Part shown: piece after piece, positions 40,145 through 43,645 of the stretch
Layout: each line of letters begins with the position of its first letter
Position numbering within the stretch: the first letter of the stretch is position 1
Assembly: GCA_012728165.1 (NCBI GenBank)
Contig: JAAYFQ010000091.1
Coordinates: forward strand, 1 to 60,230
DNA length: 60,230 bases
Source of the DNA: Synergistaceae bacterium
GTDB lineage: Bacteria > Synergistota > Synergistia > Synergistales > Synergistaceae
Direction of reading: 5' to 3'
Program-made: the position numbers and the translations under genes
The notes under the pieces: model-generated
Told to the model about the DNA's origin: nothing
The model's input: only the letters and a program-made list of their open reading frames with translations
The model's database searches: none

Positions 40145-40342
40145 TTAAGCGTAGGGCAATACTTTTGTAACGTGTGATGCTACGCAAAGTGGAAGTATTC
40201 CCTTTTTCCTAAGGGCGCGCCTGCGCTTGGAGTTTTTAGTTACAAGAAGGTGTCCTCGTCCAGACTTTTTATAGCTAACCTTACCTGTTCCTGTAATTTT
40301 AAAGCGTTTCTTTGTGCCTGAATGTGTTTTCATTTTAGGCAT
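40145..40342 (-). CDS. rpmI: Ribosomal protein bL35
   Basis: This 65-residue basic protein begins [20 protein letters not shown] and ends with a hydrophobic stretch, as in the family. GAGGAGG precedes the ATG. Middle gene of infC-rpmI-rplT. Confidence 0.97.
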
Positions 40343-40395: not shown

Positions 40396-41124
40396 TTATG
40401 CTTTTGTTTCTGTTTCAGCCTTTGCTGTAGGTTTCGCATCAGATTCTGGTTTGGTTGTCGCTTTTGTCTCTTTTTTCACGTCAGCTTCAGCTTCAACTTT
40501 TGGCTTTGCTTTTATCTTTAATTCTTCTTTTGGTTTGTCAGAAGAAACAGCTTTCTTAACAATTACTTTTGGTGCTGGTTTGGGCTTACTGATCGGCTCC
40601 GTTGCAATAGGAGCAATCATAATTCTCATATATGATCCTTCCATACGCGGCTGTGATTCAACTTTGCCATATTCTTCAACTTCAGCAACAACCTTGTTGA
40701 GAACTTCACGTCCTCTATCTAAAAAGGCCATTTCTCTTCCGCGAAAGAAAATAGAGGATTTGACTCTATTGCCCTCTTTAAGGAATTTTATTATGGCTTT
40801 AACCTTGAAATCATAGTCATGTTTATCAATTTTGGGACGCATTTTTATTTCTTTTACAACATGACTCTTTTGTTTCTTACGTGCGTCTTTATCTTTTTTC
40901 TGCTGTTGAAAACGGTACTTGCCGTAATTCATTATGCGACACACTGGCGGAGTCGCCGTGGGAGCAACTTCAACCAAATCTAGTGAAGCCTCTTCGGCTA
41001 ATGCTATTGCATCCACTGTTTTCATCACGCCTCGTTTTACATTCTCATGGTCAATGAGAAGCACCTCTGGTGATCTAATATCAGAATTAACGCGAAATTC
41101 ATCTTCTTTCATGTTTGCTGCTAT
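40396..41124 (-). CDS. infC: Translation initiation factor IF-3 with long charged C-terminal tail and probable ATA start
   Basis: IF-3 prevents early subunit joining and checks the start codon. N-domain (FRVNSDIRSPEVLLID), linker (QQQKKDKDARKKQK) and C-domain (KEIKMRPKIDKHDYDFKVK...GRVKSS-like NRVKSSIFFRGREM) are complete. About 70 extra residues follow (from near residue 170), rich in Lys, Pro, Ala and Glu. The ATG at 41112 is 21 nt from the only Shine-Dalgarno, AGGAGG (41134-41139). An in-frame ATA at 41122-41124 is 9 nt from it. Non-canonical infC starts (AUU in E. coli) mediate autoregulation, so I use ATA; with it the protein is 242 residues. Confidence 0.9.
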   Translation of the reverse strand: MAANMKEDEFRVNSDIRSPEVLLIDHENVKRGVMKTVDAIALAEEASLDLVEVAPTATPPVCRIMNYGKYRFQQQKKDKDARKKQKSHVVKEIKMRPKIDKHDYDFKVKAIIKFLKEGNRVKSSIFFRGREMAFLDRGREVLNKVVAEVEEYGKVESQPRMEGSYMRIMIAPIATEPISKPKPAPKVIVKKAVSSDKPKEELKIKAKPKVEAEADVKKETKATTKPESDAKPTAKAETETKA

Positions 41125-41290
41125 GGCGTTACACCTCCTGAAAATATTTTTGTTTCACATAGAAAATGGGACTCGATGCAAAAATGCACCAAGCCCCATA
41201 AAATTACTTCTGGGGGTCAACCTGACAACTAACTTTGTCGGCAGGCGAGAGGCGCATCCTCTACTTAAATACCCTTTGCTATATATTAAC
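41125..41290 (-). promoter_or_regulatory. infC-rpmI-rplT leader RNA with attenuator
   Basis: This untranslated leader of about 165 nt (start inferred from the promoter) holds, in order, a GAGG/CCTC hairpin, a bulged stem (CCT-GCC-GACAA with TTGTC-AGG), a CCCCC run and the terminator at 41166-41199. The CCCCC run can pair with the GGGG of the terminator's 5' arm, which would form an antiterminator. This is the location and layout of L20-controlled leaders in Firmicutes. I cannot match the L20-binding sequence by eye. Confidence 0.6.
41166..41199 (-). terminator. Intrinsic attenuator inside the infC leader
   Basis: On the minus strand a stem of about 15 bp (ATGGGGCTTGGTGCA with TGCATCGAGTCCCAT, including G-T pairs) closes a TTTT loop and is followed by TTTTCT. 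It ends about 26 nt before the Shine-Dalgarno of infC. Confidence 0.75.
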
Positions 41291-43379: not shown

Positions 43380-43645
43380 ACAAAAACCGCCAACCTGAAA
43401 TAAATCAGGAGGCGGCTATAACCACGGTTCCACTCCAATTCGGCTTGCAAAAAATGCAATCCCTCACTGCGCTATTTAGGGCGCTCCCTAATGCCTTATT
43501 CTTTCGACTTCGACATCTGCTCTGGGGTGGTTTTCAAAAAATTCATATCAGGAATCTTACAGTGCCGCCGCGCGGGATTCCCTCCCTGAGATACAAAATA
43601 TTTTATACTTTTCCCCTTCATCACATTATATTGTTAAGATAAACT
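43380..43645 (-). promoter_or_regulatory. T-box leader (tRNA-Thr sensing) of thrS
   Basis: The T-box sequence GGAGTGGAACCGTGG (about 43422-43437) is present, with UGGA to pair with a tRNA 3' UCCA. It is followed by a terminator stem with GCCGCC...GGCGG (43382-43416) and TTTTTG. Upstream, a stem I region contains GAAA then ACC (43533-43531), the same position as the specifier codon in classical T-boxes, and ACC is a threonine codon. Uncharged tRNA-Thr should stabilise the antiterminator and allow thrS transcription. Stem I ends are approximate. Confidence 0.88.

Follow-up and report, generated by a model that had tools for sequence, protein, structure and literature searches.

A probable AUA start codon of infC in a Synergistaceae bacterium and its conservation across the phylum Synergistota

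The infC gene of the Synergistaceae bacterium studied here almost certainly starts at the AUA codon at positions 41124-41122 of the window, by which we mean the whole stretch of 60,230 nucleotides that was analysed. A first-pass annotation of this DNA had proposed that infC probably starts at AUA and not at AUG, and the proposal is supported by the spacing from the Shine-Dalgarno (SD) sequence, by a sister species and by a comparison of 161 genomes. The positions and spacings given there were also right (AGGAGG at 41139-41134, ATA at 41124-41122 after 9 nt, ATG at 41112-41110 after 21 nt). We favor AUA because of the 9-nt spacing, the absence of the ATG from the sister species, the conservation throughout the phylum and the retention of the reading frame. 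Judged from the sequences compared, AUA appears to have been kept as the infC start over phylum-scale divergence; it is a phylum-wide case of a known kind and involves no new mechanism.

The window belongs to a 1.55-Mb draft genome; among named genomes, its closest relatives are Synergistaceae MAGs. The frame was identified as initiation factor IF-3 well above the TIGR00168 equivalog cut-off (203.3 bits vs 60), and the gene order thrS-infC-rpmI-rplT matches that of E. coli. The genes of the operon are the following:

40396 to 41124, minus strand: infC, IF-3, 242 aa counted from AUA (TIGR00168, E 2.2e-60; 44% identity to E. coli IF-3)
40145 to 40342, minus strand: rpmI (L35), from the list of open reading frames, the next operon gene after infC, in the order found in E. 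coli
39751 to 40101, minus strand: rplT (L20), from the same list and in the E. coli order; its product is the likely ligand of the leader, a role suggested by B. subtilis

The IF-3 of the window carries a C-terminal tail of about 65 residues (40396-40600, minus strand), rich in Lys, Glu and Ala, which is absent from E. coli IF-3. A T-box leader was seen 5' of thrS (43405-43630, minus strand); its score of 87.9 bits falls short of the cut-off, 93.

On the minus strand the start region reads ...TTTTC AGGAGG TGTAACGCC ATA GCA GCA AAC ATG AAA GAA GAT GAA TTT CGC..., with three elements:

41132 to 41139, minus strand: extended Shine-Dalgarno AGGAGGTG, the longest match to the complement of the consensus anti-SD
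41122 to 41124, minus strand: ATA, putative infC start codon, in frame, 9 nt after AGGAGG and conserved in relatives
41110 to 41112, minus strand: first in-frame ATG, codon 5, probably an internal Met, 21 nt from the SD and replaced by ATA in the sister species

The SD is longer than AGGAGG, as AGGAGGTG matches the complementary consensus of the 16S tail over 8 nt; the anti-SD was taken as the standard consensus, since the pattern for the 16S tail had no match in the host draft genome. Going 5' from the ATA, the frame meets a TGA immediately beyond the tenth codon. Apart from the ATG at 41112-41110, no canonical in-frame start was found near the infC SD in the window sequence, so that a near-cognate codon stands in frame at SD distance and no canonical start does, the pattern expected of an infC with a non-canonical start. 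The strong extended SD 9 nt upstream would direct translation from AUA and yield an IF-3 of 242 aa, with the initiator tRNA inserting fMet at AUA. Translation might instead start at the ATG, with the ATA as mere leader sequence and a protein of 238 aa. The ATG is canonical and the conserved IF-3 sequence starts after it; however, it lies 21 nt from the only SD, it is missing in the sister species and in almost all relatives, and ATA or ATT is kept in frame, together with the spacing from the SD to that codon, so we regard a start at the ATG as extremely improbable.

The position of the infC SD is exceptional within the window. SD statistics were collected from open reading frames with a match of at least 6 nt to TAAGGAGGTGATC (18 frames; the other 35 of the 53 have no SD of such strength). 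In 16 of these 18, an ATG, GTG or TTG is located 7-11 nt from the SD. This leaves infC (21 nt) and a plus-strand frame antisense to the thrS T-box region; the latter is probably spurious and no gene. infC is therefore the sole real gene of the window that has a strong SD yet lacks a canonical start at 7-11 nt. The same reading procedure, applied to E. coli K-12 infC as a positive control, returned GGAGG-AATAAGGT-ATT.

In the sister species (genome G001, locus L002) the corresponding region reads GGAGGTGTAACGCC ATA GCA ACA AAC ATA AAA; the ATG of the window is replaced by ATA, and no canonical start was found within reach of the infC SD. We then read the infC starts of 162 Synergistota genomes, one of which (L102) was N-masked and omitted, leaving 161 scorable genomes in 59 genera. 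At the start position 100 genomes have ATA, 26 have ATT and 28 have TTG, and in the other seven ATA is followed by TTG as the next codon; ATA or ATT alone thus occupies the site in 126/161, while neither ATG nor GTG was found there in any of the 161. By genus, 46 have ATA only, eight ATT only, two both, two ATA beside TTG, and one mostly TTG. The tree, built on 90 columns, supports only a rough count of start-codon changes. The alignment with relatives that had been suggested as a check thus shows ATA or another near-cognate codon strongly conserved at the same spacing. No relative with the SD shifted beside the ATG was seen, and even the sister species lacks this ATG.

Among automatically scored loci outside genus g38 the spacing is 9 nt in 111, 8 nt in 13 and 10 nt in one; for L078 it was printed as 5 nt but is 8 nt by a better SD. 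Most relatives keep GGAGGTG in the infC SD. Five loci (L017, L109, L122, L141, L164) were misread by automatic SD calling and were reassigned by eye from the sequence; every g38 locus was also judged visually, giving TTG or ATA beside TTG. In genus g49 (L122, L141, L164) the SD is degraded (GAAGGGATCGGTGA) and the ATA start is retained. In one genome (G004), tRNA genes lie directly 5' of infC (L070, 1-255, plus strand). Outside the phylum (L053, L054 and L039, L041), where a good SD is likewise present, infC apparently starts with ATC in a Fibrobacter-titled record and with CTG or ATT in Spirochaetes. We also considered whether the TAG within ATAG could serve translational coupling but dropped the idea, since the frame of this TAG differs between the ATA and the ATT versions.

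So that the test would not be circular, we picked the triplet lying 8 or 9 nt from GGAGG regardless of frame in 117 non-duplicate loci. It was ATA or ATT in 101/117, and in all 101 of these it was in frame with IF-3. Across the loci of this test, eight different distances, from 12 to 39 nt, separate the start from the conserved core; the insertions and deletions between the two thus preserve the frame, which is what a translation start at ATA predicts. The remaining 16 loci comprise the TTG genus together with L105, L112 and L032; L105 and L112 are parsing failures and both have ATA at 9 nt, and L032 has its ATA one or two bases farther on.

Downstream ATGs behave differently. Of the five genomes read in genus g51, four combine the ATA, 8 nt from the SD, with an ATG at 20 nt; this downstream ATG is missing from their relative L148. 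With such ATGs present in the window and in g51 and absent from the sister species and L148, they come and go, and the ATA stays. These g51 ATGs, and the in-frame position of the ATG in the window, would fit a dual use restricted to this species, in which AUA would be the principal, regulated start and the ATG a weak, unregulated internal one. No separate SD stands at a suitable distance from the ATG, though, and the ATG is absent from the sister species; we consider such dual use improbable. Beside the preferred start at AUA, a minor product may arise from the ATG at 41112-41110.

The clearest departure from AUA/AUU is genus g38. Here infC apparently starts with TTG in 28 of 30 genomes (for example L104, L111, L118 and L138), which make up all 28 TTG cases of the phylum, and in most the TTG lies 7-8 nt from AAGGAGG. 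The two exceptions, L167 and L168, have ATA followed by TTG, and the sequences suggest that in this genus the start moved by one codon, with UUG taking over from AUA. A start outside AUG, GUG and UUG therefore seems dispensable for infC.

How might the AUA act? IF-3 destabilises 30S complexes on codons that pair incompletely with the initiator anticodon; at high IF-3 levels initiation on its own mRNA would decrease, and at low levels increase. By homology with the AUU start of E. coli infC, the AUA likely mediates such feedback. infC starts with ATT in E. coli and with ATC in Streptomyces, and IF-3 represses such codons, its own included (PMC5472188); ATT starts are also found in Listeria (PMC13068326) and, by proteomics, in Xanthomonas (PMC5559785). 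The window resembles E. coli in its thrS-infC-rpmI-rplT order, strong SD, near-cognate AUN start and 44% identical IF-3, but the codon is AUU there and AUA here, and translational feedback is known there and proposed here. Closest in codon is S. aureus, a member of another phylum, whose infC start was placed experimentally, by Ribo-Ret, at an AUA with an extended SD (PMC13009471), whereas here it was located by comparison only. The idea of AUA as an alternative codon for the same logic is thus already known. Reporters of other S. aureus genes with AUA or AUU gave about 10-30% of the AUG output (PMC13009471). Our searches of the open-access literature on infC in Synergistetes or on infC starting at ATA turned up no report for this phylum.

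Upstream of infC lies a second potential regulatory region:

41158 to 41272, minus strand: L20-leader-like 5' leader of infC-rpmI-rplT (RF00558, 31.6 bits, below the gathering threshold of 58.7)
41168 to 41198, minus strand: terminator-like hairpin with a long stem in the fold, followed by ATTTTCT

The relatives do not reach the L20_leader threshold either (at most 44.4 bits). A scan of 20 loci found the element again at this position in 11, each time with a score under the cut-off (e.g., L095, L026 and L010), and in the window and these relatives it occupies the place of an L20 leader, the 5' leader of infC-rpmI-rplT. In B. subtilis, the L20 leader is combined with an ATT infC start, and the element is said to be confined to Firmicutes (PMC6097659); the L20-leader-like RNA described here, below the Rfam cut-off, lies outside that phylum. 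The infC-rpmI-rplT region of B. subtilis shares with the window a near-cognate start, an upstream L20-leader-like element and a terminator-like hairpin, which makes the architecture of the window familiar; unlike there, the start here is AUA and not ATT, the leader scores below the Rfam cut-off, and L20 binding is putative. By analogy with B. subtilis, L20 is the likely ligand of the leader.

This leader, the L20 attenuation that controls the operon in B. subtilis, and the move of one genus to TTG are all consistent with AUA being the start and no feedback device: it would simply keep IF-3 low relative to L35 and L20, and an L20-type leader would do the regulating. Against this, non-canonical starts are repressed by IF-3 in E. 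coli and Streptomyces, and AUG or GUG never replaces AUA/AUU in the 161 genomes, an absence that constant low output would explain equally well. We consider this explanation rather unlikely and prefer an AUA start that would mediate feedback. Whether the AUA/AUU start was kept throughout the phylum by selection for IF-3 feedback, and whether g38 with its UUG may have lost or weakened that feedback, we judge to be an even matter.

These results extend non-canonical infC initiation, with AUA as the codon, to almost an entire phylum, and the fact that AUG never occurs at the site gives comparative support to selection on the start codon. Across Synergistota, gene callers that accept only ATG, GTG and TTG will truncate IF-3 or misplace it. 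Genus g38, with its UUG, is the most interesting contrast regarding loss of feedback and, if the proposal holds, would be a natural experiment on the avoidance of AUG by infC.
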